This document shows positions 11,701 through 55,756 of a stretch of DNA of 64,000 nt, in pieces. The DNA lies in contig CAJXVS010000001.1 in NCBI GenBank assembly GCA_913061265.1, forward strand, positions 310,001-374,000, in the 5' to 3' direction. The notes beneath the pieces are model-generated. The model made no database searches. It worked only from the letters and a program-made list of their open reading frames with translations, and was not told where the DNA came from. Positions within the stretch are counted from its first letter, which is position 1, and the number at the start of each line of letters is the position of its first letter. The DNA comes from an uncultured Halobacteriovorax sp. (GTDB lineage: Bacteria; Bdellovibrionota; Bacteriovoracia; Bacteriovoracales; Bacteriovoracaceae). A program made the position numbers and the translations under genes.

Positions 11701-14700
11701 AAGTCCTAGTCTAAGTTATAGCGCCAGTAGCGATGCTTGTGGTTTTTCTCATTATGAAATTGCTATTGGCCTTACTTCAGGATCTACTGATGTAGTCTCT
11801 TTTACCAATGTAGGAGATGTTTTAACTCACAAGTTCTTCTCTATAACTCCTAGCTTATCGACGAATACAGATTATTTTACCTCAGTTAAAGCAGTAGATT
11901 TAGCTGGCAATGACTCAGGAACAGTAACCACAGCTGCTTGGCAACTTCCCTCTCCAGGAGGAGTTAGCCCAGCAGGGCTCGAAGCTTGGTTTGATGCAGA
12001 TGATTTAGGAACTCTTTATCAAAACGCCGCCTGCTCTACCCCAGTCACGACAGATGGACAAAATGTACTTTGCTGGCAGGATAAGTCAGCTAGTTCTAAT
12101 AACGCAACAATAGCTGCGAACAATCCTACTTATCAGACAAATGAATTCAATGGCAAAGCAGTTATAAGATTTGATGGCACGAATGACGTTTTAGATCTTG
12201 GAACTAATATCTCGACGATTAGAACAGTCTTTATAGTAAATAAATCTGATTCAAGTAATCACCAATTACTTCTAGGTCATAACTCATCTCAAGACTTCTA
12301 TACAGATAATGGAACGCTTCTTAATACAGGAACGGCCAATAGTAATTTAACCTCTGGTTCATGGCGGGTTAACAGAGTTTCAGAGTCTGATCCTACGAAC
12401 TTTAATCAATCTGGACAGTATTCATTATACTCAGTTACGACTTCAGGAAATGTTGAAGCGAATAATCTTTCCTCTGATAGAAAAGTAGCTGGGCGGTTTT
12501 TCCAAGGAGACTTAGTTGAAGTCATCGTCTTCTCTAGAGTCTTAACCTCAGATGAAGTAGAAGATGTTGAAGATTACCTTTATAATAAATGGTTTGATGC
12601 TGCTCCTGACGCTCCAACTGCTATTACCTATGATCCCACTTATACTTCAGTTTCAAACTCGAGCCCTCTTATTTCTTGGGCCCACTCTAGCGCCCCAGAT
12701 TTAAATAACTACGAACTCTCTATCGGAACTTCTTCAGGCGCCAATGATATTTATGGCTTCTCTGATATTGGGCTTATAAACTCTACAACTATTACAGGGA
12801 TTTCAACGACTGAATGTACGCCTTATTATGTATCTCTTAAGGCCATTGATACAGACACTTTCTCCTCTCCAGTAGCTGAGGGTAGTGAGTTTTACTTTGA
12901 TCAAACAAACCCATCTGAACCTGGATCGGGATCACTTTCGGGCGTTGCAAGCAATGACACTTCTCCTACCTTTACTTGGTCCACCTCGACTGATTCCTGC
13001 CTTCTCTCTCACTACGAAGTTGCTCTTGGAACGACTTCTGGTGGAAATGAAACTATTGATTGGCAAAATGTTGGTATTACAAATTCTCATATCTTTAATA
13101 GCATAGCTCCAGTATTAAGCACTGCTACTGATTACTTTATCTCAGTTCGTTCAGTTGATATGGCGGGAAATAAGTCGACGATTAAATCAAGCGCCTCTTG
13201 GCAGGTTGCAACTTGCGTTGCAACTGATACTACGAACCCTACAAACCCTTCAACTTTAAACCTTACTCAAGACCCAGGGCTTTCAAAATCAAAACTTTTA
13301 AGTTTTACGGGTAGTACTGATGCTTGTGGACTTTCTCATTACGAAGTGGCGCTAGGAACAACATCTGGTGGAACGGATATATCAGGCTTTACTAATATTG
13401 GATTAGTCACATCTTATCAATTTACAGGAGTTTCACCTTATTTAAATTATAACCAGCCTTATTTTATGACAGTACAGGCAGTTGACCTGGCTGGTAATAA
13501 CTCAACACCAGTACCAAGTGCATCTTTTGAACTAACGAGCCCAGGAAATATTAGTGCAACAGGAATGAACCTTTGGCTAGACATGGAAGATGCTGATCAG
13601 CTTTTTACTGATAGCTCTTGCTCTACTGTGGCCAGTACCAACGATGAGCGGCTTAGATGCTTAAAGGATAAAAGTGGGGGCGATAACCATGCCGTTAATG
13701 CCAATACTTCTAATAGTCCTAAATTAAGAGTTAGCGATTTTAATGGATTAAAAAGTGCTTATTTTGATGGCTCACAAAATGAATTTTTAGACTTTGGAGC
13801 TCAGTCAACAATTAGAACTGTCTTTTGGGTTTTACAAGAAGATACTTCTAATCTTGGAGATACGTCTTTTTTATTAGGTGATCCCGCTGGAACCACCCAA
13901 CATTTTTCTCGCGCTTCAACTGGCGGTAATATCTTTGGAGGTTCTGCTTCTGCTAATGTTACTGGTGGAACCCTAAAGCATGACTCTACGACAATTACAG
14001 GAACAAGCACTATTATGCCCTCTTCTCCTGCTGTCTTAAGTTTAACAACAACAGGAAATGTTACAGCTTCTTCTTTCTCACGAGATAGAACTTCTTGTTG
14101 TGGTGGAAGAACTTGGGGTGGAAACTTAGCAGAACTTATTATCTTTGATAGAGTCTTAACCGCCTTAGAAGTTCTCGATGTAGAAAATTATCTGATGGTC
14201 AAATGGGGTATATCCCCGTCTACTACTGAATGGCTTGGAAGTACGGATACAGATTGGTTTACACCAGCAAATTGGAGTAACGGAGTCCCCACTAAAGACC
14301 TAGATTGCATTATTAACGATCAGGCCAACGACCCAGTCATCACTTCTGCCACTGGAGTCTGTAAAGATGTAGAATTAGGTTCTGGAACTCTTACCCTTAA
14401 TGGTGGAACAACTGAATCCTTAGAGGTTCATGGAGATTTCACCAATACAGGTACTTTTAATTATAACAGTGGAGTTCTTCGCTTTAAAGATGATGGATCC
14501 ACTTCTGCAGATCAAAATATCCTCACAAATCAAAACCTAGGAAATGTAGAGGTTGATAAATCTGCTGGGGGCCTAGTATCTTCTTCAACGAGTAGCTTTT
14601 CGATTGATGACTTAATTTTCACAGGAACTAATCTTTCTACCTTTAAAGTAGAATCTAATAGCACAGTAACTCTTGTTGGCGGTGCTACCGTTCAAAAAGG

Positions 14701-17700
14701 AACTTTCCTTTTAGATAATAAAGCAGTCTTGGAAGTAGGGAACAACCAAACCATTCTCGTTAATGGAGGTACATTTCAAACAACTGGTATCAATGATGCC
14801 CATACCCAAGATACTACGAACAAAGCGCTTATTACAGTAGCTGGTGGAACTGGCGATTGGACCTTCAACGCCACCTCAGGTCAAGTTTCTCTCTCAGGTT
14901 TTATCATTGATAAAATCGATATTGATGGGATTCAAATCAATGGATCATCAAATCTAACAGTCTTCCAAGGTGGCCAGTTCACAAACCTTATAAAAGATTA
15001 TGCTACTCCAGTTAAGGCCCTTACATTAAATACAAGCACCCCTATCTCCGCGGCTATTGCTTCGAATGTAGGATTTAATTGGGGTGCTGCTAATGATACT
15101 TATGCAGGGGATCCGGTTCAAGCTGATAACTATTACCTTGTTTATGCCAACGCTTGTGGTGGAAATACTTTAGTCTTTGATCAGTGGTTTGGAGACTTTT
15201 ATCAAACTGGAGTTTCCCCTGAGACAAAGATTTTTGATCTAGATGACTCTGGATCGACTTGCCAAATTGTCATGGACGTAGGAGCTTCTCCTGTCACCCT
15301 TAAAAACTTTGAAGCTACGGGGCATGACGAGTCTGTTCTTGTGAGCTGGTCTACTATCATGGAGACAGATCATTTAGGATTTAATATCTACAGAAGTGAT
15401 ACCTATAACGGAAATTACGTTCAGATCAATAGTGAACTACTTAGAAACTACTTAACCTCCTCGTCACTTCGCGGATACTATCGATTCGAAGACTTAGGTC
15501 TTCAAAATGGAAAAAGCTATTATTATAAGATTGAAGACATCTCATTAGATGGAAACAAAAAGGCTCATGGACCTGTAAGCGCAGAAACAAATGCCGCCAA
15601 TGGGGCTATTCCCGCAGTTGGCGCAGGAGAGAATCAACTCCCTACTCCAAACCCAGTCGTTGATTTAGGGACAGGAGTTAGTATACTCTCTCAAACTAAA
15701 ACAAGTTTAAGAATTAAAATCACGCCACAAAATTTAACCGTCACAAACTCTGGCTTTAACCCCTCTTATAGTGATCTCTCTATTCCAGGTTATTCAAAAA
15801 CAATTGAAGCCGGTAGGCCAGCGCTTTTAAATAGAGTTATTTTAATTCCAGTTGATGTAAACTTCACTTCTTTGACTTCAACTGAGATTAACCTTATTCA
15901 AAGCGATAGCTCAGCAGCGCTTAGTGGGAATAAAGTATCCCCCGCTCCAGAGTGGAATTTAGGAGGAACTGGTGTCCTAGAGCCAACTTATAATGTCGAC
16001 AACAGTTTTTATGCTATTAACCAAGTACTACCTCAAAGTTTTTATGCCCTTCCTGAGGAAGCCAAAAAGATTGGGAACAAATACTATCTGGAGATTAACG
16101 TCACTCCCCTTAACTATAACCCTGTAACAGATAGTTTAATTAAGCTAGATGAAGTTGTTGTAGATATTGGACTTGATGGTGATGCTTGGTCTTATGACCC
16201 TCCCGCCGATGATTCAGTTATTGAGCCCGCCGCTTTAGAAGGAAATTTAAGAGTTAAGTATAAAAAAGAAGGATTTTTTCAAATTACCTTTGATCAATTA
16301 TCTAATCAAAATCTTGAAGGTCCTTTCTACAATCAAGCAACTGCTGGGTTTAGAGTTTATTATCACGGCATCGAGCTTCCTCTAGAGATTATTGATGCTG
16401 ATGGCGCTTTCAACTCTGGAGATAAAATAAATTTCTACGCTCCTTTTGAGTACTCATTTGAAGATGATGAGGATGAAGTTGTCTTAAGCCTCTTTGATCT
16501 AGATGAAACGAATGATCATGAAAATTGGGATTCGCCTCGTAGGTTTGATCCTGTATCCAATAATGATGCTATTCCTAACGGAAGTTTTGGCTCTCTTGAG
16601 AGGACTGATCTTTATGAAGAAAACTTAATCGCTCTTTTTAATGTTCCACTTGGTGATAATGTTGAACATCTTTATTGGAAGCAAATTTATACTGTGGGAG
16701 GAAGCACTCCTAATGCTAACTCAAGACTCGATGTGAATATTGATTTGAATTCATTAAATAAAGACTCTGATAAGACTGTTTATGTAAAAGTCTTCTTTAG
16801 AGGCAGAATGTCATTTCTTTCCTACAACACCACAAAGCATAATCTTGGTCTTAAGGTAAATGGCTCTGCTGTCCTTGATAACGTTGTCTTTTCAACGACA
16901 GCACCGACGGCCCATACATTTGAGATTCCTTCGAGTGAATTCATTCAAGGCGCTAATATCCTAGGACTAGAAGTTCAAGGAGATAAACTAGAGCTTGCTG
17001 GTGATTACGATATCATTCATATCGATAAAATTGAGATTACTTATGACTCTCTCAGTAACTCAGAAAATGATGAACTTCTTCTTAAAGGTACTACTGCACA
17101 TTCACAAATGATTGCTGGAGGTTTTTCGAGTGATCAAATTGAAGTCTTTGATATCTCAAATCCAAAAGAAGGTCTTAAGTATTTAGACCAAGCTATTAAT
17201 ACCGATGATGGAGGAACTCGCTTTTATACCCTTTTTAACACTCATCCAGGTAATTACGGAGCTAGTGGTTCAAACCTATGGGTTAAAGAGAAGGATCAAT
17301 ATTCTTCGCTTAGTCTCTTAAAGTTAGTAGAAGGCTTTGAGTATGATCTTAAGCTAAGTGAGAACCGCGCTGACCTTTTAATCCTTTCTGATCAGGAGCT
17401 CTTAGATGTGGCAGAGCCATTAATAGAGGCCCGCCGCGCGCAGGGTCTTGAAGTGATGGCCACAAGTTTTGAACAGGTCTACGCTCAATTTAGCAATGGA
17501 AGAATCTCAGTACAGGCCATAAAAGACTTTGTTCAATACGCTCTTGATACTTATGAGGTTAAACCTAGATACCTTCTCATTCTAGGTGATGCCTCTTACG
17601 ACTCTAAAGCTGCTCTGGCCGTCAGTGCTGGAATTAAGAAGAGCCCTATCCCTCTTGTAAAAGGTCTTCATAATGATTATGGCTCGGATCAGTGGTTTGC

Positions 17701-18670
17701 TGAAGATAGAGTAACAGGTGCTCCAAGATTAAGTATTGGACGTATTCCAACTTCAGACCCTATTAAGCTTGAAAACTATTTAGTAAAACTATTAGCTTAT
17801 GAATCTGGTGAACGAGCACCTCTAGATTCTAGAGTTAAAACAACTTCATTTATTGTAGGAACTGAATCTACTGAAGGTTTTTCAAATTACGTCTCAGCTT
17901 TAAGTCAAATATCTAGTGACCAATTTAGCTCAACATCTGATGAAATTATCGACAGAAATCAGCTTGGAAGTGATGCTAGTACTAAGGCCTCTATCAACGG
18001 ACTCTTCAATGATGCTCCTCTCTTTGTGACTTATTATGGGCATGGAGGAGAAGGTGAATGGGGAAGCTATGATGGAGATACTTTCTATGAAGTAAGTGAC
18101 GCTCAAGCGCTTAATAATGAAAAGCTTCCTATTGTCATGGCCTTTAACTGCCTTAACGGGCATTTCTATGATGCTAATGGATCCTCTACTTCCTTAGCTG
18201 AAGAGATGGTCTTGAATAAAGATGGAGGTGCTGTGGCCTTTTGGGGATCGACTACACTCTCCTCTCCTGTTTCACAAAACAACCTTGCGACTTCTTTTAT
18301 GAACGAGCTCGTTAGAGAATCTAAGACCAATTATTCTAAGGACACAACTATTGGAGATCTCTTTTTAGCCTCTAAGCTTAAGCAATCAAATGATGCTGTA
18401 ACAAATGATACGGTTAAAAGTATGGTTCTTATTGGGGACCCTTCTATGAAGATGCCTGCAGCTGTCTTTAATTCAGAGCCAATCTCAGCTGCTCCTACGA
18501 CTAGTCAGGCTAGTGCAGGTGGCGGCGGTTGTTCAGCTGTTGCTGGTGAAGGCGTCGTTAGTAAATCATGGGATGCTGGACTCTTAGAGATCTTTTTTCT
18601 CTTCTTCTTTGGGTTTTGCATAAAAAGAAGTCTTAATTTTTTGGGCAGCTTTTCTTCTTCGAATAAATAA
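8762..18670 (+). CDS. Giant surface protease: gingipain-type C25 domain, LamG/FN3 modules, sorting tail
   Basis: A 3302-residue protein with an N-terminal signal peptide (~1-25). Modules in order: three ~150-residue repeats (27-484); a LamG-like domain (~490-757); three fibronectin III-like repeats (~755-1065); LamG-like (~1067-1279); three more FN3-like repeats; LamG-like (~1596-1820); a region opening TDWFTPANWSNGVP (~1825); an FN3-like unit (~2177-2270); then a C25 protease domain (~2860-3220). The presumed catalytic pair is H3094 in YYGHGGEGEWG and C3130 in AFNCLNGH, and LIGDPSMKMP closes the domain. The tail GGGGCS (3253-3258), a hydrophobic stretch (~3273-3287) and KR resembles GlyGly-CTERM/MYXO-CTERM sorting signals. 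It is likely exported by the type II system and held on the surface, where it could degrade or bind prey or host polymers. The 3' end overlaps the convergent gene by 38 nt. Confidence 0.88.
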   Translation: MIQLLPYLLIVACCFLAPVDSFALISKVGFFSGTETTAPTTSNNLNQATAYSMKWDQSKFDTNYFSHSTGSFSHQVTVLLAGDYKLTLAAPLYLTTTTGSRRSVRAEVYVNGVVTPHGIAESSYIRNANNHQESSLHLGILLKGLSANDKVEVKFNQGTSAGDLDTSGAKLFMENVDSAKDIFSATGTRTTSSTNLNQNTAFDFEWSTVATKDSIYTHNVGASPETIQVGTTGSYFVFVNIPLDHSVACTGNRVNILADIEINGSPFSGGSFSQGYIRCLEGHSRSSIHWFGVVDLTSLDNLSISLIAEGTVLNTVTVPGSREGSIYLERIDSTSESISLSSTALTSGTNWNTGTSGVALSWNGQKFKDATTFNHSTSTNPEQIIFNEPGDYLLFYSDELTTASARINPNINFKINGVTIDGGECSTHYMRNAEGHNNSSCSTIIPLTGIDAGDILKIETALEAQTGTATSTGNSYLTIRKKTNEIPTFDIEDIPNKVLHLDGSDFSSVLDGSSRDANDISFTDTDVKTFKDISGSTNIHNGFQNTAGRRPDFDTANKMMMFDGTDDYFDFNNHADLNLSTIDERTFAIAFKTNADVTSRQVIYEEGGTVRGLNVYIRAGNLYIGVWNNTNDGDGVQAFTSSNTAVSANTHYYVSLVFDYSNYSGPSGPDGELRGHINGVKFSALGTTTSKLYAHAGLIGLGAMRNDSYFDDGTQGGDGNYFDGSIFEFIMWNSAIDDGTAINIYDYFVEKWPDPQPVTNLQLDSQYTSATGSTPLISWTASISPDVDHYDVAVGTSAGATDTLAFTDQGLVTSTTISGLTLSECTDYFASVKAIDTEPKESTIVSTEFFKYDGTAPSAPSSPAITGSGSTSVSKQFNWSPSIDTCSFSHYEIGLGTTSGATDTVVFTNIGNTTDHIFTGLSLLSATNYFFTLRAVDSAGNTSSVLNSGAWQIDTCVATDTTNPTDPSGLIISGNAGPTTSPSLSYSASSDACGFSHYEIAIGLTSGSTDVVSFTNVGDVLTHKFFSITPSLSTNTDYFTSVKAVDLAGNDSGTVTTAAWQLPSPGGVSPAGLEAWFDADDLGTLYQNAACSTPVTTDGQNVLCWQDKSASSNNATIAANNPTYQTNEFNGKAVIRFDGTNDVLDLGTNISTIRTVFIVNKSDSSNHQLLLGHNSSQDFYTDNGTLLNTGTANSNLTSGSWRVNRVSESDPTNFNQSGQYSLYSVTTSGNVEANNLSSDRKVAGRFFQGDLVEVIVFSRVLTSDEVEDVEDYLYNKWFDAAPDAPTAITYDPTYTSVSNSSPLISWAHSSAPDLNNYELSIGTSSGANDIYGFSDIGLINSTTITGISTTECTPYYVSLKAIDTDTFSSPVAEGSEFYFDQTNPSEPGSGSLSGVASNDTSPTFTWSTSTDSCLLSHYEVALGTTSGGNETIDWQNVGITNSHIFNSIAPVLSTATDYFISVRSVDMAGNKSTIKSSASWQVATCVATDTTNPTNPSTLNLTQDPGLSKSKLLSFTGSTDACGLSHYEVALGTTSGGTDISGFTNIGLVTSYQFTGVSPYLNYNQPYFMTVQAVDLAGNNSTPVPSASFELTSPGNISATGMNLWLDMEDADQLFTDSSCSTVASTNDERLRCLKDKSGGDNHAVNANTSNSPKLRVSDFNGLKSAYFDGSQNEFLDFGAQSTIRTVFWVLQEDTSNLGDTSFLLGDPAGTTQHFSRASTGGNIFGGSASANVTGGTLKHDSTTITGTSTIMPSSPAVLSLTTTGNVTASSFSRDRTSCCGGRTWGGNLAELIIFDRVLTALEVLDVENYLMVKWGISPSTTEWLGSTDTDWFTPANWSNGVPTKDLDCIINDQANDPVITSATGVCKDVELGSGTLTLNGGTTESLEVHGDFTNTGTFNYNSGVLRFKDDGSTSADQNILTNQNLGNVEVDKSAGGLVSSSTSSFSIDDLIFTGTNLSTFKVESNSTVTLVGGATVQKGTFLLDNKAVLEVGNNQTILVNGGTFQTTGINDAHTQDTTNKALITVAGGTGDWTFNATSGQVSLSGFIIDKIDIDGIQINGSSNLTVFQGGQFTNLIKDYATPVKALTLNTSTPISAAIASNVGFNWGAANDTYAGDPVQADNYYLVYANACGGNTLVFDQWFGDFYQTGVSPETKIFDLDDSGSTCQIVMDVGASPVTLKNFEATGHDESVLVSWSTIMETDHLGFNIYRSDTYNGNYVQINSELLRNYLTSSSLRGYYRFEDLGLQNGKSYYYKIEDISLDGNKKAHGPVSAETNAANGAIPAVGAGENQLPTPNPVVDLGTGVSILSQTKTSLRIKITPQNLTVTNSGFNPSYSDLSIPGYSKTIEAGRPALLNRVILIPVDVNFTSLTSTEINLIQSDSSAALSGNKVSPAPEWNLGGTGVLEPTYNVDNSFYAINQVLPQSFYALPEEAKKIGNKYYLEINVTPLNYNPVTDSLIKLDEVVVDIGLDGDAWSYDPPADDSVIEPAALEGNLRVKYKKEGFFQITFDQLSNQNLEGPFYNQATAGFRVYYHGIELPLEIIDADGAFNSGDKINFYAPFEYSFEDDEDEVVLSLFDLDETNDHENWDSPRRFDPVSNNDAIPNGSFGSLERTDLYEENLIALFNVPLGDNVEHLYWKQIYTVGGSTPNANSRLDVNIDLNSLNKDSDKTVYVKVFFRGRMSFLSYNTTKHNLGLKVNGSAVLDNVVFSTTAPTAHTFEIPSSEFIQGANILGLEVQGDKLELAGDYDIIHIDKIEITYDSLSNSENDELLLKGTTAHSQMIAGGFSSDQIEVFDISNPKEGLKYLDQAINTDDGGTRFYTLFNTHPGNYGASGSNLWVKEKDQYSSLSLLKLVEGFEYDLKLSENRADLLILSDQELLDVAEPLIEARRAQGLEVMATSFEQVYAQFSNGRISVQAIKDFVQYALDTYEVKPRYLLILGDASYDSKAALAVSAGIKKSPIPLVKGLHNDYGSDQWFAEDRVTGAPRLSIGRIPTSDPIKLENYLVKLLAYESGERAPLDSRVKTTSFIVGTESTEGFSNYVSALSQISSDQFSSTSDEIIDRNQLGSDASTKASINGLFNDAPLFVTYYGHGGEGEWGSYDGDTFYEVSDAQALNNEKLPIVMAFNCLNGHFYDANGSSTSLAEEMVLNKDGGAVAFWGSTTLSSPVSQNNLATSFMNELVRESKTNYSKDTTIGDLFLASKLKQSNDAVTNDTVKSMVLIGDPSMKMPAAVFNSEPISAAPTTSQASAGGGGCSAVAGEGVVSKSWDAGLLEIFFLFFFGFCIKRSLNFLGSFSSSNK
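8840..10213 (+). repeat. Triplicated ~150-residue module at the N-terminus of the C25 giant
   Basis: Residues ~27-176, ~180-335 and ~336-484 align with each other. Each has an opening with N-x-N-T/Q-x-T/G, a central beta-rich part, and a shared core Y-[IM]-R-x-x-[EN]-x-H-x-x-S-S (YIRNANNHQESS, YIRCLEGHSRSS, YMRNAEGHNNSS). They look like beta-sandwich binding modules; I do not recognise the family. Confidence 0.7.
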
Positions 18671-46424: not shown

Positions 46425-49400
46425 CTACTCCCATAGCCCAACACCATTCTCACCAAGGGCATCTTCAATCATAGGAGTGATATACTTTTCAGTTCTCTCA
46501 TCAATCTTTTTCTTTTGAGAACTGCCTTCACCGAGTTCCCCTTTCATAAGAGGTGCGAGTATCTTATCAGCAAAGTTTTCGACAGCTTTTTTTCCACTTG
46601 GAGTATTTCTAAGTGAGTAAGACCGATTATCCCACCTAGTTCCCCAGTGAAATTCATGTCGGTTATAGCCCATTAGCCCAGCGGCTGGGACTTTAAAAAG
46701 AGCAGAGAAACCAGTTTCAATTCCATCTCTTTTTTCTGTTAATCCTTTTTGAACGATAGGTCCAAAGAGCGTTTCAACAAAACCCCCATTTGCAGAATCA
46801 TCTGCGAGAGTATCAATAACCTTTCCATTTATATCTTTCATAAGACTATCAAGTTTCACTTTAGAACTTGGATTCTTCGTATCAAGAAGTTCAAAGATCT
46901 CACTTAACTCAAGTCCTTTTAGTTTTCTCTTTATATCAGTCATGGCCTGATTGCCTTTTTTTCCTGCAAATATTCTATTTAGCATATCTTTTGAAGAGAG
47001 TTGCCAAACAACTCCCCCAGGATCAACACCTTGGTCTTTCAAGGCCTGAGTTGATTTATCTTTAATAATCTTAGAGACAAGTGACTTTAATAAGATGTCT
47101 CCGAGTTTAGAACTTACGAGAAGATCTTTTAACTGCTGTACTGACATATTCCCTTTATTTAATTTAATAGCTCTTTTAACTTTTTCTTCAAAATCCCTAA
47201 TTCCTTCTAAAAAACCTTGTTGGTCATAGCTGACGAGATCTTTAATATAAGAAGCGATCATTGGCTGAAACTCTTCCATGATAGTAATATAGTCTTTTTC
47301 GTTAGTTGCCGAATTCTTTACTTCAGGTTTTCTATCGATTTCTTGATTAATATCTTTGATAAAAGTATCGACATTAAAGTTAGTAGGTTTTCCGTCATAC
47401 TTAGTTGTTAAGATGCTGCTTAGTGAGTCAAGAAAAGCACTCGTAACCACTTGCTCCTTAGCATTCAATTTTAACTTAGGGTCGGTAATAAGCTTCATCT
47501 TATATTCTTGAATAAGATTTGGAGCTAAAGACTCGAGACCACAATCCTTAATTTTTCCAGCTATCCAATCTGTATCAACAGGCTTATAGGCGTCATCCTT
47601 AATCGAAGCATTAAGCCTAAAAGCTTCTGAAATAAATTCAAAGTCTTCTTTCCTTCCTTCGAGAGACTTAATACTGGTAAAAGGAGAGAGTTTTTCTGCA
47701 ACATCTGACCGAACTCTTTGAATACAAGCGTCCCATTCAATAATCGTTTTTTCATCTTGAACAAAGAGCCCATCGCCTAAGTCTCTTGCGTACTTAATCG
47801 CGCCTTTAGTAAATCCAAAGATTGTCATGGCCGCACAGGCATCCACCTTGTATTTATACTCCTTTGTCTTTGAGTAAATATCCACTTCCCTCGTACATTT
47901 ATTAAAATAGAGAAGGCTATCCTTTATAACGGAAGAGTTTTGTTTCTCGTTTTTGCTTAGAAGTCTTAAGATCTCTTTAAACTTAAAGGGCATTATCTTT
48001 TCCATTGAGTCTAATCTTAGTTTGTTTGAACAAGCATCGAATTCTTCATCTGGGTTATACTTTTCATTTGACCAATTACCATCGAGAGCGGCTTCAGCAT
48101 CTTTTTTGTATTTGCTTAAGCATTTATCAAAGTCGCCAATCAATTGCTCTTGAAGATTAGATTTAAAGGCAATTGTTTGAGCTCGCATTTGATCACTCGC
48201 TCCGCCGCTAATCTTAACCGTTTGATCGAGAGTATAAGGGATCACTCCTTTTACAATCTCTGCTCCTGCAGTTGCTTTGATCGTGATAGTTAAACGTTTT
48301 AAGGCCTTATCTGCCTCGGCTTTATCTTTAATCCTACTTATATTTTCAATTTCTTTTTTAACTTCGGGATTTAAAATAGTTCCAATGATTCTTTCTTGTT
48401 CATTACCATTAAAGATCCTAGAGTTCTCTTCTTCATTCAAGTTCTTCGTCAAAGTCTTACCTATAACCCATACCGTTGAGTTTGACTTTAATTCAACCAC
48501 ACATTCGTCTAGGTGCTTATCAACGGAGACCCCAGGAGCTCTATTATCTAAGCACTTATTTATTATAGCGATTGATCTCTTCTTCATCTCAATAGCATCT
48601 TGCTCTGTTTCCAAAAGACCATCTTTTATAAGCCCTTCTGCTGTGAGACCCACAATTTCAGGACCGATCAATCTCGTGGCATCCACCTTAAAATTATCTA
48701 AGGTATCTGCCATCACCCTCGCATTTTCATCTTTTGAAGCCTCAAGAATGCGGGCCTTATAATCCAGTCCATCAGAACTAAGTAGTTCTTTTTGGGCACG
48801 GGCCACAATGCGGCTAACTTCTTTATCCTTACGAAGAGGGTCATTTAATGAAACGAGGTCACTAACCTGCTCTTGTAAACTAAAGTCTATAATCTGAATT
48901 GCAGCTTTTCCTTTATAGGCCTTGGCTCTAGAGACTAACTCATCAATTGTCTTAGAGCCCTGCATGTCTTTATCCATGCCATCAAGAACGACCTTACCCC
49001 AGGATTTTAAATTGCCCTCTTTTACATTGGCGTCTTTAAGCGAACCTTCAACAATGGGTTGAAAGATAATGGCCTGAATCTCGCCATCTAGTAATAGTTC
49101 AACACCACATTTCTCTTTGAGAGGATCCAGAGCATCAGTCATTTCATTGACCGTTTTAAAGTCTTTTAATTCTCGATCAAAGCATGCCTGAATTTTTTTA
49201 CCCATTAATATTTTACTGGCGGCACTTAGATTGACTAATTTTCCAAGCTCAGGGTCTGCGGCTAGAGTGTCTTCAACGATTTTTCCAACCGCATGAAAAC
49301 TTGCCCAAGACAGGGCTTCTTTTAAACATCCAGCATGAGCACTATCTGCATATTCTGCTCTATAAGTGGCCCTAATGACCTTCTCATCCTTAGAGAGTCC

Positions 49401-52313
49401 AACTTCTTTAGGTAGGGTATTTTGAATTTCATCGGTAATCCTTTTCTCTTCTCTATCAAAGCAAAAGAGAAAACGAGGCATTGTTTCAGGATTCTCGGAT
49501 AAGCTGTCATAAAAATCGGGACCAATCGCCTGCTTAACCATTTCAGGAACTACTCTTGATAGAGTTCTGTTTAGAACTAAGTTAGCGCATTCACCTGGCT
49601 CAAGAGAAGGAACTGATACGATCTTCTCTGACTTAGGTCTAGGCCTTCCATTTTGATATTTTACATCGTCAACTGAGTTTGAAATCTTAATCTTGGCTAT
49701 AACTTCTCGCTGCTTATTAATACAAGCTTCATAACCCTTCTCTAAGACCATAGTACTAGTCTCTAGCCTCATCTCAGGGGTAAGGTCTTGTTTCGCTAAC
49801 TCGATCGTTAGAATCTTATCAATAACAACTCGGCCTGTATCAACCTTGATTTCACTCACACAACCCATAAGGCTATTTTCAAAGTCTACTGGCTCCATAG
49901 AGTTTAATTTTTCTGTATTATACTTAGTTCCAAAAATGCCATCTGATTGAAGTCCTGTTGAATTAAAACAATTTCTTCCATCTTTTAAGACTTTTTCTTT
50001 TTCATTACTTGTTAACGTGAATTTATAGCCCTTTGAATCAGCTATGGCCTTGACTTCAGTATCGAGAACAGGGCCTAGTGCCTTATCTACAGTTGAAAGA
50101 AAAGCCTGGTAAAGGCAGCCTTTAATTTTGTTTGTGGAATCAGCTTCAGAGGCGACAGGTCTATAATTTTCTTTGATACAGGCCATATAAACTTTGCTGG
50201 CCTCTTCACTCATATGAGCTAGATCATTTTGCTTAAGCTTTAAGAGAAGGATTTCGTTACCTACAAAGATAGGAGCTTCAACTTTGAAGATATCCATGCA
50301 TTTATCAGCGACTTCTTTATTGCGGTTCTTACCTGCCCGTGCCAAGCACTCTTTAAAAGCATCTGTTACGTTAAGGACAATGGTTTTTATCGCCCTTTCA
50401 GATTCCTCTGGTAGCATTTCTTTAATAACTCTCAAAAGAATCTGATCACCAAAGGCGGCATAAGCTAACTGTGCCCCTTTAGCCGTAATGTCAGTCACGC
50501 CACTTTTAAAATTATTAGTTTTCTTACCAAGCTCTATTGAAATATCATTAGAGATGGCCCAAATTTCACGGTTTGTGATCAAGTGACTAAAGTCTGGTCC
50601 AGCTAATGTTTCATTTGCATTTTCATATATCGAATCTCTAACAAATTCTCTTCTACTTTCTTTTCCAAAGAATAACTTAAAGAAGCCATTCTTTAAGCCC
50701 CCAGAACCTTCTACATAAGGAGCATCAATATCATAATAGTTCTTTGCCGATCCATCTAAACGAATCCGACTTCCACTTGAAGCTAACTCTCTTCTGTCTT
50801 TATCAAAAGAAAAAGGAAAGATATTTTTCTCAAAACCCTCATATTCAAATTCACCTGACTTTCGTCCTTTAACAAAGACCGCTAGGTTACCTTTTAAAAT
50901 ACCATTTTCGACACGGATATTATCCGCATTGATTCCCATAACGGACTTCCATTCTTTTTTATCTGGATAGTTTGTTGAGATAAGATAGTTTCTTTGACCT
51001 TCGTCATCAGTCTTAAAGTCGAGTTTCAGCCCTTCTTTCAAAGCTTCTTTATCACTCATACCTACCCATTCCATACGAGCAACTTGACCCTTGGCATCTA
51101 GGAAGACTTTAACCCTTCTAGGTTTATCGAGAATATTGAGCTCAAGGAAGAGGCTTCTATTAGTGCTTGGGATAATATTATTGGCCACCGCTTTATGCAG
51201 CTGCTGATCCCAAAGAGAATCAGTGATGTTTTCAAACCCACCTAGGTCTGGAAGGATATGGGTCTCAACCACGTCCCGGCAAGGAAGTGCTTTTGAGCCT
51301 CTAAAATTATCTAGTTCTGTTTCAGAATAAATTCTGCTTGAAACCAAGTCATTTCTAGCAGCTTGGTAGCCATGCTCTGTTGTTAAATCATAAACGGTAT
51401 CAATAGTTCTTAAAACTTTTGATCTGTCGTTACTATCAAGTTCTAACTTTTGAGAAATTAACTCTTGTCTCTCAAAATTAAAAGAAACACGGTAAAGATT
51501 ATTTCCGCTATAGCGCTCTTTTACTAAGACATCATCTTCACGCTGCTTAAGCATACTTTGGTAGGCTTTATTAAAGTGATCATTGTTAAACCCAAAACCA
51601 GCTTTTCGCATCTCGGATTTTATCTTTCCCATTGATGATTGAAACTGAACGGGAGTCTTGGCCCAGTGGCTACTATTTTCACTTATAGAGAAATTGTTAT
51701 CCCGAGAGCTTGGGTTTAGAAGATCTGGTCTCGCAATCTTTCGAGGAAAATTAAAACCAGGAGCGCTAGATTTTTTTGCTTTAAAAACTTTTGTTACAAA
51801 CTCGCCTCTCTCTTTATTAAAATAGACACCAAGATGCTTAGCGCTTCTTCCGCTTCCACTTTTACCAGTAGAGATCAGTTCAAAGTTATTAGAGGAGTTA
51901 TCAACCCTTTTTTCAAGCTTTGCGACAAAATCCTTAGCCGCTTGCTTAGTTCCAAACCGTACACCTAGCCCATTTGCGGTTTTTGATCTATTACCTGGAT
52001 TTGATAAAGAATGAACTCTGTAATCAGCTTTAACATTATGCTCATCAAGATTGGACGGTGATACATTTGAGAGGCTTCTTGAATTCTTTGGGAACTCAAA
52101 GCGCGCCTTACCTGAGGCGACTCTTCTTCTTTCAAATTCTTTAGACCAGCTAAAGGTCTTTGAGACTAATCGTTGTTTTTGAGAATCGTAGTAAATAGCG
52201 GTAGAAGTTCTTCTTCCCTCATCATGTTGCTGGGCCTCTAAGCTATAGCGCTCCCCTGCAAAGGCAGAACCTACGCAAAAAAAGCAAAGCAAAATGCCTT
52301 GAATAAAAAACAA
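46425..52313 (-). CDS. Giant exported protein with ten cysteine-pair repeats
   Basis: A 1962-residue protein with a signal peptide ending near SAFAG (residue 20). I recognise no known family. Residues 21-515 are beta-rich, with four copies of a strand motif near 41 (YYDSQKQRLVSKTF), 164 (YFNKERGEFVTKVF), 278 and 501. Residues ~600-1600 are charged and helical, with 20 cysteines in ten pairs. Residues 1600-1962 lack cysteine and end in ENGVGLWE. The length, charge and disulfides suggest a large periplasmic or extracellular scaffold, perhaps exported by the type II system; function unknown. It lies 83 nt after the rhomboid gene on the same strand. Confidence 0.75.
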   Translation of the reverse strand: MFFIQGILLCFFCVGSAFAGERYSLEAQQHDEGRRTSTAIYYDSQKQRLVSKTFSWSKEFERRRVASGKARFEFPKNSRSLSNVSPSNLDEHNVKADYRVHSLSNPGNRSKTANGLGVRFGTKQAAKDFVAKLEKRVDNSSNNFELISTGKSGSGRSAKHLGVYFNKERGEFVTKVFKAKKSSAPGFNFPRKIARPDLLNPSSRDNNFSISENSSHWAKTPVQFQSSMGKIKSEMRKAGFGFNNDHFNKAYQSMLKQREDDVLVKERYSGNNLYRVSFNFERQELISQKLELDSNDRSKVLRTIDTVYDLTTEHGYQAARNDLVSSRIYSETELDNFRGSKALPCRDVVETHILPDLGGFENITDSLWDQQLHKAVANNIIPSTNRSLFLELNILDKPRRVKVFLDAKGQVARMEWVGMSDKEALKEGLKLDFKTDDEGQRNYLISTNYPDKKEWKSVMGINADNIRVENGILKGNLAVFVKGRKSGEFEYEGFEKNIFPFSFDKDRRELASSGSRIRLDGSAKNYYDIDAPYVEGSGGLKNGFFKLFFGKESRREFVRDSIYENANETLAGPDFSHLITNREIWAISNDISIELGKKTNNFKSGVTDITAKGAQLAYAAFGDQILLRVIKEMLPEESERAIKTIVLNVTDAFKECLARAGKNRNKEVADKCMDIFKVEAPIFVGNEILLLKLKQNDLAHMSEEASKVYMACIKENYRPVASEADSTNKIKGCLYQAFLSTVDKALGPVLDTEVKAIADSKGYKFTLTSNEKEKVLKDGRNCFNSTGLQSDGIFGTKYNTEKLNSMEPVDFENSLMGCVSEIKVDTGRVVIDKILTIELAKQDLTPEMRLETSTMVLEKGYEACINKQREVIAKIKISNSVDDVKYQNGRPRPKSEKIVSVPSLEPGECANLVLNRTLSRVVPEMVKQAIGPDFYDSLSENPETMPRFLFCFDREEKRITDEIQNTLPKEVGLSKDEKVIRATYRAEYADSAHAGCLKEALSWASFHAVGKIVEDTLAADPELGKLVNLSAASKILMGKKIQACFDRELKDFKTVNEMTDALDPLKEKCGVELLLDGEIQAIIFQPIVEGSLKDANVKEGNLKSWGKVVLDGMDKDMQGSKTIDELVSRAKAYKGKAAIQIIDFSLQEQVSDLVSLNDPLRKDKEVSRIVARAQKELLSSDGLDYKARILEASKDENARVMADTLDNFKVDATRLIGPEIVGLTAEGLIKDGLLETEQDAIEMKKRSIAIINKCLDNRAPGVSVDKHLDECVVELKSNSTVWVIGKTLTKNLNEEENSRIFNGNEQERIIGTILNPEVKKEIENISRIKDKAEADKALKRLTITIKATAGAEIVKGVIPYTLDQTVKISGGASDQMRAQTIAFKSNLQEQLIGDFDKCLSKYKKDAEAALDGNWSNEKYNPDEEFDACSNKLRLDSMEKIMPFKFKEILRLLSKNEKQNSSVIKDSLLYFNKCTREVDIYSKTKEYKYKVDACAAMTIFGFTKGAIKYARDLGDGLFVQDEKTIIEWDACIQRVRSDVAEKLSPFTSIKSLEGRKEDFEFISEAFRLNASIKDDAYKPVDTDWIAGKIKDCGLESLAPNLIQEYKMKLITDPKLKLNAKEQVVTSAFLDSLSSILTTKYDGKPTNFNVDTFIKDINQEIDRKPEVKNSATNEKDYITIMEEFQPMIASYIKDLVSYDQQGFLEGIRDFEEKVKRAIKLNKGNMSVQQLKDLLVSSKLGDILLKSLVSKIIKDKSTQALKDQGVDPGGVVWQLSSKDMLNRIFAGKKGNQAMTDIKRKLKGLELSEIFELLDTKNPSSKVKLDSLMKDINGKVIDTLADDSANGGFVETLFGPIVQKGLTEKRDGIETGFSALFKVPAAGLMGYNRHEFHWGTRWDNRSYSLRNTPSGKKAVENFADKILAPLMKGELGEGSSQKKKIDERTEKYITPMIEDALGENGVGLWE
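47541..50348 (-). repeat. Tandem cysteine-pair helical repeats (ten) in the 1962-residue protein
   Basis: Cysteines pair as 656/672, 712/733, 782/818, 864/909, 951/996, 1044/1069, 1254/1271, 1398/1428, 1473/1493 and 1530/1591. The first of each pair usually sits in a hydrophobic-x-x-C-[LIF] context (FKECL, YMACI, YEACI, QACFD, INKCL, FDKCL, FNKCT, WDACI). The second precedes a helix ending in L/I. Repeat spacing is mostly 55-95 residues; the exception is a cysteine-free stretch near 1070-1253. Confidence 0.6.
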
Positions 52314-52396
52314 CTGACTAAATCTTATAACTACCTCTCTATAGCTCTTCTTCTCATCGGTATAATTTGAAGAAGACTAAAGAGGCTTTATTGAAC

Positions 52397-53323
52397 CTAA
52401 TGCCCTGTAATCATAGGCAATATAAAGAATTCAAAAGAGAGAGTTCCAGCCCCGAAGAGAACTGCTATCAATGAGAACTTAAGCATTTCACCCAGTGGGT
52501 ATTCACCTGAGGTTTTAGCACCATTGAGGATTCCAAAAAGCATTCCTACACCAAGGCCAACTCCGTGGGCAGTGTTGGCGATAGAGCCAATGGCCCCAGT
52601 AAAGCAAAGAAAGAACCAACCAATTAAGATCCAAATATCTTTTTTAGGGAGGGCGAAGGTCGAGTTTTTATCAAACTGTTTATTCATCCAAATAAAGCCA
52701 AGAAGTGCATAAACAATGCCTGAGAGACCTCCGAATGGATTCTTACTGACAAAGTATTGAGCAAGGTTTGAGAGGACTCCTGAAGATAAGAGAAGGATAA
52801 GATAATAAGTCTTCCCCTTTAAATTTTCGATCAAACTTCCTAAGTCCTTCATCCACATGGCATTAAAAAGAATATGCATAAAACCAAAATGAAGAAAGAC
52901 TGGAGTGATGAGACGCCATACTTCTCCTTGCATAATTTCGGGTAGAAAACTGTCTTGCCCGTGAAAGTTTGTCATAAAGAAAAGCTTGTAGATTGAATCA
53001 TCGACAAAGATCTTACTAATAAAAACTAAACCACTAATTGCGAGGAATATAAGACTGATAGTCCCAAGAGGAGTCTCCTTCATTTTCTTATATTCTTCAG
53101 GCATCTCTTGAGGTGGAGGAGCAAAACCGACTTTTACTCTATAGTAATCAAAAGCGTCGGGTGCTGTGGCCTTATCTTCACTTGTTATGACAAATAGCCC
53201 TGATTCACTGTCTAAATGAACCCTAACGTGGATATTTCTTTTTAGTAATTCTGATACTATTTGGTCAGCTACTTTCTTATCTGCTAACTCCCCAATCTTT
53301 ATCGTATTTTCAAATTCATTCAT
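52397..53323 (-). CDS. Rhomboid intramembrane serine protease, GlpG-like
   Basis: A 308-residue protein with an N-terminal cytoplasmic domain (1-70, rhomboid-N-like: SELLKRNIHVRV, VITSEDK) and about six membrane helices. The catalytic Ser201 lies in GGLSGIVYAL and His253 in NTAHGVGLGVG; H150 and N154 in the HILFN motif form the oxyanion part. It should cut membrane-spanning substrates within the inner membrane. Rhombosortases are smaller and lack this N-terminal domain, so assignment as GlpG-type is better. The next gene on the strand is the 1962-residue giant. It diverges from the gene at 53412. Confidence 0.9.
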   Translation of the reverse strand: MNEFENTIKIGELADKKVADQIVSELLKRNIHVRVHLDSESGLFVITSEDKATAPDAFDYYRVKVGFAPPPQEMPEEYKKMKETPLGTISLIFLAISGLVFISKIFVDDSIYKLFFMTNFHGQDSFLPEIMQGEVWRLITPVFLHFGFMHILFNAMWMKDLGSLIENLKGKTYYLILLLSSGVLSNLAQYFVSKNPFGGLSGIVYALLGFIWMNKQFDKNSTFALPKKDIWILIGWFFLCFTGAIGSIANTAHGVGLGVGMLFGILNGAKTSGEYPLGEMLKFSLIAVLFGAGTLSFEFFILPMITGH

Positions 53324-53411: not shown

Positions 53412-53666
53412 ATGGCATATAACAGCAATGAATTAATGAAACAGATTGAAAAAAGAATTTCACATCTAACTGAAAGCAGTGATCCAAAGAAAGAACTACA
53501 AAATATGTGTAGGCTTCAAATAGAGCACACCCCTCACCTTTCTCAAACAGAGGCAAAGGACTATGTCATTCTAGGACTTATTGAATCTCATAAAGATCAC
53601 GAACTAGATCATCTTTGGTATCAGTTTAAGAATTTAGCAGAAGAGTCTTCAGAGGAAGCTGCTTAA
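53412..53666 (+). CDS. Small cytoplasmic protein of unknown function
   Basis: An 84-residue acidic, helical protein (NELMKQIEKRISHLTE, KKELQNMCRLQIEHTP, AKDYVILGLIES). GGAGG 5 nt before the ATG strongly supports that it is expressed. It carries no signal peptide or membrane segment and no family I recognise. Its last 4 nt overlap the 3' end of the convergent 697-residue gene. Its start is about 90 nt from the divergent rhomboid gene. Confidence 0.65.
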   Translation: MAYNSNELMKQIEKRISHLTESSDPKKELQNMCRLQIEHTPHLSQTEAKDYVILGLIESHKDHELDHLWYQFKNLAEESSEEAA

Positions 53667-55756
53667 AGTCCGCTTAGTACTTTTTCAAGGGCAAGATCGA
53701 TGAGTTTCTTATGTTCTCTGGTCACCTTGCCCCCTAATAAAACTCCCCATTCCCCACTTGTCGTTTGAGAAGGTTTAAAATCGATGGCTATCATTAATTT
53801 CTTAGCGTCTGCTGGACTTATTTTATCAGGGCCGATACCTGTAATAGCTTTCCTTATATCTTTTTCTACTTTTTCAGCCCTAACAATATATTCACTTCGG
53901 CTAGAAACAGGAATTGAAGATCCATCAGGGTATTTGGTTTCTACAAAGGTAACACGGTACTTAGAAGGATCTTTTCTCCCAAGGTTCCTCACCAGCTTAA
54001 TCTTATCTTTTGAGCTCCATGCGCCATCTGGAAAATAGATACCATCGTCACCAGAGAAAACAGCGGGCTTTCTGGTCTGAGTTACCTTTTGGGTACCTCT
54101 ATTAAAAGTTCTTTTTGCTGTATTCATAGAGTCAGTAACTTTTTCGACATGTTCATCCACCGCCGTAAGAGCTTTTCCAACCATCGATTTATTATCAAGT
54201 TTATGAGTCGCATTTTTAGCTAGTCCCACCATCGCCTGATAAGCATTATCAACACCGACGCCTGTAAAATCCACTGATACCAATCCATTTTCTGATTGAC
54301 CGAGATCTATCCCCGCCCTATTCCTTACAAATAATGGAGGAGCCAAACTATCAACATTCTCAAAATATCTTGTCATTTTGTCTAAGGTCTGAGGTTCAAC
54401 TTTAGTTCCAAAGATCTTTTTAAATTGAGTATTTAAGGCGGCATGGTATTTTTCAGGCGTTTCAAAGTCTGTTGATTTAGTCTTTCTTAAGATACCAATA
54501 GCATCTTTAGATAAAACTTTCTTTCTTCCAACTCCATTAACTAATATTTTATGATCAGACAATCCAATTGATCTTTGTAAGTCGATTCTAATACTTTCGA
54601 CTCCTTTAATATCACTAGCTAAATTATCGACTCGGCTTTGATACTCAACCAGCTTTGACTTTGAACCAGGTTCACGAATCATTCCTCTTGACTGCCTTGC
54701 TGCCATATTCGCTTCCAAAGGAGTATCCCCAGTTCCAGCAAGGAACCATTTTTTAGGATCCCCTAATTGTCCATTTCGACTCTCCCAAAGAGGCTTTAAA
54801 CCAGTTGAGCTTAAAGCCTTTTCAAACTCAACTGTTGATTCTTGATAAAGCTTTTTAAGTGCTCTTAAAAGAGCTGCTGAGTCTTCTCCCTCATTTATGA
54901 GAAAACGAAAACGCAGAGACTTAAAATCTCGATAGCGACCTTCTAGTTTTCCTGCGAGTTCCGGATTCTTTTGAATTTTATCAAAAAGAATTTTATTAAA
55001 GAGATTTCCAGTTGCATCAGATAAATCTTTGGTTTCCATAATTTCATCATTTAATTGCTTTAAAACAGAATTTTCCACGTCGAAATAAACAGGTTTTTTT
55101 CCTGTCGGAATATCATCTATCCCGTTAATAAAGATCCTGTTATCAAAGTCTAAATTACTTTTTGCGTTTGCTGTCTTAAATTTTTCAACTGTAGGAAGTG
55201 ACCTGACTCGTGACCTAGAATAAGAAGAATGTAAGCTCGCTTTGAAATCTGATGCCTTAGCTGCAGAGATAGGTCCTAGCCTAATAGAGGAAGATAATAA
55301 CTCTGCATCACCTAATCTATCTAAACGTGGAACTGAAATCGAATCAATAGCCACTGCCGGAAATGAATTTGTATCTGAATGGGCAATACCCCTAGAGTCT
55401 AAGCTAACAACTGAGAAGTGTTCTGAGCCCTCTGCCATATTTGACACTCTCGCTTCTTGACCAGCAATAGCAATAGCCTCTGTATCGGTGAGAAGACCGG
55501 CCTTGGCATCAACGGCTGAATCAGTAACCACAACTACCTTTGCTTCAGCGGCGGCATTAACACCAACCCCTTGCATTCCATCATTTATCAACGACGCTGA
55601 CTTAGCTTCTGCCGCTACGCTCGTACCAGAGATTCCATCCATTTCATTTCGAAGGATTTTAGCTAACTGCTCTGCCCCTTTCTCACAAGTAGCTTGAACA
55701 CTGATCCATTGCAGTTGCAGGAAAAGAAGGAAAATGATTTTTAAAACAAGTTTCAT
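53663..55756 (-). CDS. Large exported protein of unknown function behind sigma-28-like promoter
   Basis: A 697-residue protein with a signal peptide (MKLVLKIIFLLFLQLQ...VQA). Residues ~47-105 contain alanine-rich segments with repeated AAEAK (SVAAEAKSAS, NAAAEAKVVVV) and VDAKAG. The middle and C-terminal parts are mixed alpha/beta, including FINGIDDIPTGKKPVYFDVEN near 210 and LVRNLGRKDPSKYRVTFVET near 615. No known domain is recognised. An almost perfect sigma-28 promoter ends 10 nt before the ATG. It could be secreted by the type II system; function unknown. Confidence 0.7.
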   Translation of the reverse strand: MKLVLKIIFLLFLQLQWISVQATCEKGAEQLAKILRNEMDGISGTSVAAEAKSASLINDGMQGVGVNAAAEAKVVVVTDSAVDAKAGLLTDTEAIAIAGQEARVSNMAEGSEHFSVVSLDSRGIAHSDTNSFPAVAIDSISVPRLDRLGDAELLSSSIRLGPISAAKASDFKASLHSSYSRSRVRSLPTVEKFKTANAKSNLDFDNRIFINGIDDIPTGKKPVYFDVENSVLKQLNDEIMETKDLSDATGNLFNKILFDKIQKNPELAGKLEGRYRDFKSLRFRFLINEGEDSAALLRALKKLYQESTVEFEKALSSTGLKPLWESRNGQLGDPKKWFLAGTGDTPLEANMAARQSRGMIREPGSKSKLVEYQSRVDNLASDIKGVESIRIDLQRSIGLSDHKILVNGVGRKKVLSKDAIGILRKTKSTDFETPEKYHAALNTQFKKIFGTKVEPQTLDKMTRYFENVDSLAPPLFVRNRAGIDLGQSENGLVSVDFTGVGVDNAYQAMVGLAKNATHKLDNKSMVGKALTAVDEHVEKVTDSMNTAKRTFNRGTQKVTQTRKPAVFSGDDGIYFPDGAWSSKDKIKLVRNLGRKDPSKYRVTFVETKYPDGSSIPVSSRSEYIVRAEKVEKDIRKAITGIGPDKISPADAKKLMIAIDFKPSQTTSGEWGVLLGGKVTREHKKLIDLALEKVLSGL

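Follow-up and report, generated by a model that had tools for sequence, protein, structure and literature searches.

A gene on the minus strand of the window (the 64,000-nucleotide stretch of Halobacteriovorax DNA analysed here, as a whole) encodes a 1962-residue exported protein with an invariant frame of 21 mature cysteines. Judged by profile comparison, the gene product founds an unannotated superfamily of four clades (types 1 to 4), wider than one protein. Twenty of the cysteines form pairs along a predicted array of helical hairpins, and the junctions between hairpins are probably stapled by ten disulfides, each linking Cys 2n−1 to Cys 2n. The best explanation, which we hold to be somewhat better than an even bet, is that the protein is a Sec-exported, non-enzymatic, DsbA-dependent component of the cell envelope, stapled at its junctions and serving as scaffold or binding rod.

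Cysteine pattern, start codon and export

Cysteines are 23 in total, i.e., Cys10 and Cys13 in the signal peptide, Cys345, and 20 at residues 656–1591; none follows residue 1591 in the whole-protein count. This agrees with the sequence-only reading, which had placed twenty cysteines in that zone and, counting up to about residue 1600, a single mature one, Cys345, outside it. The clustering of 20 of the 21 mature cysteines has P = 5e-6. They fall into ten pairs (Table 1) with 16–61 residues between partners, as had been proposed. The claimed recurrence every 55–95 residues or so stands for most first-to-first steps (56–93), but left out two larger ones, of 210 and 144. The first cysteine of a pair has a hydrophobic residue at −3 in nine cases of ten and L, I or F at +1 in nine of ten. 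Both occur together in eight, so the hydrophobic-x-x-C-[LIF] context noticed earlier does prevail at first cysteines (chance P about 1e-8).

The conservation of these residues was assessed in 19 aligned full-length proteins, two of them about 63% identical to the window protein and the others about 20–30%. All 21 mature cysteines are invariant, together with nine other residues among about 1920 (F548, P681, L803, F811, F952, T1280, D1697, S1735 and F1914). With alignment columns treated as independent, cysteine invariance reaches log10 P = −42, an exact value not to be leaned on since the sequences are related. The cysteine pattern is other than chance. None of the residues invariant in the 19 proteins is His, Glu, Lys or Arg; hence, the non-cysteine set provides no candidate catalytic set.

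The length of 1962 residues, counted from the TTG start picked by the ORF finder, is that given earlier; the strand, not given then, is minus. This TTG is unconserved in the genus of the window, and TTG seems to be the start in most other family members. Five codons upstream stands an ATA preceded by a Shine–Dalgarno (SD)-like motif, and the whole SD-ATA stretch, AGAGAGGTAGTTATAA, is identical across three genomes of the genus. The ATA at 52328 is likely the true start, which would make the signal peptide five residues longer. Non-ATG starts (positions 52257–52340, minus strand) thus seem to be family-wide, SD-ATA in the genus and TTG in most others, which is unusual for a long, conserved gene. 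Export, already proposed from the sequence, is supported by the relatives, which also have a hydrophobic start with A-x-A, as in a signal peptide. The mature protein shows no evident transmembrane segment.

Table 1. Features of the gene and its surroundings (window positions; residues counted from the TTG start).
Feature	Residues	Positions	Strand	Basis or remark
Whole gene, type 1 superfamily member, 1962 aa exported protein		46425..52313	minus	ORF; open-frame homologues in 17 syntenic loci
Probable true start: SD-like AGAGAGG (52340-52334), then ATA (52328-52326)		52326..52340	minus	inference
Signal peptide (...VGSAFA^GERYS), Cys10 and Cys13 inside	1-19	52257..52313	minus	sequence
Module M1	22-141	51891..52250	minus	hhalign; beta-beta-beta-beta-alpha-alpha in model
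Module M2	142-258	51540..51890	minus	model; hhalign
Module M3	259-342	51288..51539	minus	hhalign M2/M3
Cys345, lone conserved Cys in low-confidence linker 342-357	345	51279..51281	minus	invariant in 19; pLDDT < 50
Beta-rich domain	~384-540	50694..51164	minus	AlphaFold2 model
Helical-hairpin array, about 14 hairpins	~606-1635	47409..50498	minus	models; unit-unit similarity
Staple 1 (predicted)	Cys656-Cys672	50298..50348	minus	invariant; helix register mismatch 0
Staple 2 (predicted)	Cys712-Cys733	50115..50180	minus	invariant; spacing 17-55 across relatives
Staple 3 (predicted)	Cys782-Cys818	49860..49970	minus	both substituted in L038, neighbours kept
Staple 4 (predicted)	Cys864-Cys909	49587..49724	minus	invariant; spacing 13-50 across relatives
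Staple 5 (predicted)	Cys951-Cys996	49326..49463	minus	invariant; spacing 28-65 across relatives
Staple 6 (predicted)	Cys1044-Cys1069	49107..49184	minus	invariant; spacing always 25
Cys-free repeat units	1070-1253	48555..49106	minus	segment at 1214 vs 1353, Cys masked; model helices
Staple 7 (predicted)	Cys1254-Cys1271	48501..48554	minus	invariant
Units without internal Cys	1272-1397	48123..48500	minus	segment at 1271 vs 818, Cys masked
Staple 8 (predicted)	Cys1398-Cys1428	48030..48122	minus	invariant; spacing 11-35 across relatives
Staple 9 (predicted)	Cys1473-Cys1493	47835..47897	minus	invariant
Staple 10 (predicted)	Cys1530-Cys1591	47541..47726	minus	invariant; spacing 22-69 across relatives
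Cys-free helical C-terminal domain	~1660-1962	46428..47336	minus	profile matches in types 1-4
Rhomboid-family intramembrane protease gene, directly upstream, 83-base gap		52397..53323	minus	PF01694, E 5e-28

Predicted helical array and probable pairing of its cysteines

We predicted the structure with two AlphaFold2 models, made from 22-sequence alignments and covering residues 20–862 (mean pLDDT 84) and 763–1962 (mean pLDDT 83); since pTM is 0.52–0.58, the global shape of the rod is uncertain. In these models the array is 79% helical, its helices alternate between roughly 30 and 20 residues, and all 20 array cysteines lie in helices. The hairpin repeats suspected from the sequence are thus predicted, with the cysteine pairs on consecutive helices, Cys 2n−1 and 2n flanking the junction of successive hairpins; neither a structure without repeats nor unpaired cysteines was seen.

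Repeat units were also compared with one another by hhalign, the segments being taken from the family alignment between each even cysteine and the next odd one. Unmasked, 818–864 matches 1428–1473 (P 90), and the control segments, taken from the N- and C-terminal parts, give scores near 0 except where neighbours trivially overlap. With the cysteines masked, 1214–1254 matches 1353–1398 (P 94) and 818–864 matches the segment starting at 1271 (P 90), both in register; only a few masked comparisons exceed the controls, many unit pairs being weakly similar. At the level of profile alignment, this shows the array units to be related to one another, cysteine-free ones included. The masked matches imply that the cysteine-free stretches are further copies of the repeat unit, and these copies would account for the two large steps in cysteine spacing. 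The idea of a solenoid of cysteine-pinned hairpins hence keeps its repeats and its pairs, but the predicted staples sit at the junctions between hairpins of near-constant length, and the array runs on through units devoid of cysteines.

Two pairings are geometrically possible, i.e., across junctions (656–672, 712–733 and so on) or within hairpins (672–712, 733–782 and so on). Junction pairing is favored because it pairs every invariant array cysteine, because the homologue L038 has replaced exactly 782 and 818 (by E and I) and retained 733 and 864, and because the mean helix-register mismatch, calculated from distances to helix ends in the models, is 5.5 residues against 10.1 for within-hairpin pairing. 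Loop lengths support it as well, several within-pair loops varying widely among the 19 proteins (e.g., 13–50 and 22–69). The same fold with its disulfides inside each hairpin (Cys 2n to 2n+1) would agree with the fact that a hairpin has its two ends on one side and that the spans of constant length are those from Cys 2n to 2n+1, mostly 37–49 residues in the 19 proteins. The odd number of array cysteines in type 3 proteins is compatible with either scheme. However, the within-hairpin scheme increases the register mismatch, leaves the invariant 656 and 1591 and the cysteines flanking each long gap single, and distributes the two residues co-lost in L038 over different pairs whose other members, 733 and 864, stayed; we regard it as improbable. 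That the cysteines would serve metal binding, redox or thioester chemistry instead of structural disulfides is hardly credible. Invariance alone would also suit metal binding, but the cysteines lie 13–69 residues apart on different helices, no metal-site CxxC or CxxH motif and no invariant His or Glu accompanies them, and the protein is exported, in an organism whose genome has four DsbA-like matches and one DsbB.

The regions flanking the array had been overlooked in the sequence-only reading. At 51288–52250 (minus strand), three beta/alpha modules precede it, unrelated to the cysteine repeats and without known family. They occupy residues 22–342 in tandem, with about 117, 117 and 84 residues, and share in the model the order beta-beta-beta-beta-alpha-alpha. 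Comparison by hhalign (M1/M2 P 95, E 3e-8; M2/M3 P 90; M1/M3 P 78; near 0 against other segments of the protein) confirms them as mutual homologues at the sequence level. The other overlooked part is the conserved C-terminal domain, found by profile matches in all four types, with the signature ...GGF.ET...DF.W...LR..P.GKKA...F...IL.P. Between modules and array, the linker that carries Cys345 is the only stretch of the N-terminal model with pLDDT < 50. L038 has lost Cys345, and L097 and L105 lack its type 2 counterpart although both keep all 16 array cysteines; hence, no array cysteine has Cys345 as its partner. Our guess is that it may form an intermolecular bond, cross-linking two molecules.

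Superfamily and known analogues

The closest named record is a Halobacteriovorax metagenome-assembled genome (Bdellovibrionota, Bacteriovoracia), at 63% identity. Searched with a profile of 15 members, 57 of the 129 genomes of the class give matches and 72 have no detectable member, and among 369 genomes of the phylum only two matching genomes lie outside the class; a type 3 profile extends the latter to six genomes in three other families. The superfamily is provisionally confined to the phylum, genomes beyond it having been covered by a close-relative scan only. A tree of the C-terminal domain sets type 2 (support 0.999), type 3 (0.983) and type 4 (0.986) apart from type 1, whose grouping is poorly resolved. 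Types 1, 2 and 3 have in common an exported helical array with paired cysteines, a variable within-pair loop and then a span of roughly 45 residues.

The genome of the window carries, besides this type 1 gene, a type 2 paralogue (L074, at G000:C4) of 1408 aa and 17 cysteines. Type 2 proteins have 16 array cysteines and their own conserved neighbourhood. In L074 (5686–17344), this locus comprises the 17-cysteine paralogue, exported proteins of 323 and 1600 aa, and an exported endonuclease/exonuclease/phosphatase-like protein of 505 aa (weak Pfam match, E 0.19), a set kept together in about a dozen genomes. Type 3 proteins show the repeat at a glance, as C-x(9-22)-C with about 45 residues after it, and their pair numbers vary by whole units (12 in L088, 10 in L101). 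An HMM of the type 3 unit matches the window protein with E 6e-5 overall, but individual matches are weak and a shuffled control reached 0.007, so that this is not proof. Type 4 proteins (L043, L044 and L083-L085) present a cysteine-rich domain in place of the N-terminal modules; a degenerate chymotrypsin-like N-terminus, suspected by eye, received no support from Pfam or PDB. In L043, the helical array is also interrupted by a bacterial SH3 domain (PF08239, E 2e-9).

The earlier impression that no known family fits is upheld. Pfam gives no family for the window protein at E <= 10, searches of Pfam, NCBIfam and PDB sequences give no significant match to the superfamily, and neither Sel1 nor TPR is among the families at E <= 1 in 15 relatives. 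In Foldseek comparisons with PDB, no natural solenoid of solved structure comes up at E <= 0.001, and the matches in PDB and viral models are whole-length and low-TM only. Several weak hits were discarded: one PHROGs match over a 27-residue stretch (unusable), a DUF445 match of one type 3 relative (E 4e-4, its 20.8 bits falling short of the curated cut-off of 33.8) and Tim13, the top PDB match of the family profile (non-significant, E 0.13), the last two being judged chance. The literature on Halobacteriovorax and Bacteriovorax and on disulfide-containing helical solenoids yielded nothing on this protein.

Mitochondrial intermembrane-space proteins of the Tim9/Tim13 and CHCH groups also consist of antiparallel helices stapled by cysteines, as predicted here, but each of them is one small hairpin carrying CX3C or CX9C motifs, whereas the spacing is here long and irregular and the hairpins stand in tandem. 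The closest mechanical analogues are HcpB and HcpC of Helicobacter, Sel1-like and disulfide-bridged. In HcpC, a disulfide joins the end of each repeat with the beginning of the following one (PMC3851747), and such junction tethering is what we predict here. Neither protein (1KLX, 1OUV) was found by PDB sequence search or among the Foldseek PDB matches listed. The Hcp unit has 36 aa (PMC2581425), unlike the spans of about 45 aa from C2n to C2n+1 and the stapled loops of 11–69 aa seen here, with helices of about 30 and 20 residues; moreover, the ten predicted staples, the additional N- and C-terminal domains and the 1962 aa differ from mature HcpC, of 267 aa. As membership of Sel1/Hcp fails on sequence, unit length and fold, the likeness looks like convergence. 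CagY, a surface protein also of Helicobacter, contains a very long stretch of alpha-helical repeats in which cysteines recur at regular places and disulfides stabilise the motifs (PMC2581425), and resembles our predicted array in this respect. However, its repeats have 38–39 aa, are highly identical and are encoded by direct DNA repeats prone to expansion and contraction, while type 1 units are fixed in number and so diverged that their similarity appears by profile-profile comparison only. None of the searches run reported sequence similarity to CagY.

Proposed role and gene neighbourhood

We favor a scaffold or binding rod because the protein is exported, keeps a frozen cysteine frame over fast-changing loops, has no candidate catalytic residues and is built of tandem arrays in two parts. 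Its head would consist of the three N-terminal beta/alpha modules and the beta domain, its long rod of about 14 helical hairpins, and the conserved helical domain would close the C-terminus. After export, oxidation of the DsbA/DsbB type would link Cys 2n−1 to 2n across the inter-hairpin loop, so that each disulfide would tie the end of a hairpin to the start of the next and stiffen the rod, presumably in the protease-rich periplasm or on the surface of a predatory bacterium. The loops inside the staples, free in length, could form a variable surface for putative binding partners.

Against such an envelope scaffold count the 72 class genomes without detectable member, the pTM of 0.52–0.58, the weak similarity of many unit pairs and the fact that Foldseek gave no solved natural solenoid at its threshold. 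A factor secreted into or onto prey (an adhesin, a toxin carrier or an inhibitor of prey proteases), with disulfides that would stabilise it outside the cell, would suit the confinement to a phylum that includes predators, the fast divergence over a fixed cysteine frame and the position of the type 2 paralogue next to other large exported proteins. But the protein has no secretion signal beyond its signal peptide, no known toxin domain and no surface anchor, and the gene, a single syntenic copy near housekeeping genes, gives no sign of having been exchanged between lineages, which makes this a minority option, although one to keep in mind. Another candidate is suggested by the conserved surroundings of the gene, which had also gone unnoticed. 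A block formed by SufBCDS-Rrf2, rhomboid, the big gene, convergent ArgS, a GNAT enzyme and topoisomerase IV is kept through the type 1 genomes, and in 14 of the 15 checkable type 1 loci the gene immediately upstream, with the same orientation, is rhomboid. The big protein might then be a substrate or partner of the protease, i.e., an envelope protein that intramembrane proteolysis would release or regulate. However, ArgS was found without the big gene alongside in 16 genomes of the class, and two of them (G011 and G013) still carry rhomboid at the same place; L034 shows the converse, a type 1 gene without adjacent rhomboid. The persistence of rhomboid without the big gene weakens the functional link, for which synteny is suggestive at best. 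Furthermore, the whole Suf-rhomboid-ArgS-topoisomerase IV block being conserved, adjacency may be plain synteny, and the mature protein is without evident transmembrane segment; we give this option very little credit.

Going further than the envelope rod, one can imagine a predator-lineage superfamily of giant, oxidatively folded rods at the interface of prey invasion or the bdelloplast, with stapled loops as recognition surface and covalent dimers through Cys345, a speculation that we think unlikely. If true, this kind of envelope scaffold would be new and would have arisen independently of Sel1 or TPR repeats. Disulfide-tethered alpha-solenoids are rare in bacteria, and a 2008 count gave three repeat proteins with reported intramolecular disulfides (PMC2581425). 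The superfamily would be a larger, unrelated case, in which predicted staples number up to 12 and the cysteine frame stays frozen while the rest of the sequence changes fast. It lends itself to the question of which roles large exported proteins play in Bdellovibrio-like predators, and its members form a natural set in which to learn how a repeat protein, thanks to modular disulfides, accommodates changes in sequence and loop length.

Two other genes of the window deserve mention. Beside rhomboid, at 53663–55756 (minus strand), lies the gene of a 697-aa protein with no Pfam match, kept in the genus, in L080 and in L129. At 8762–18670 (plus strand), a 3302-aa ORF would encode another giant protein.
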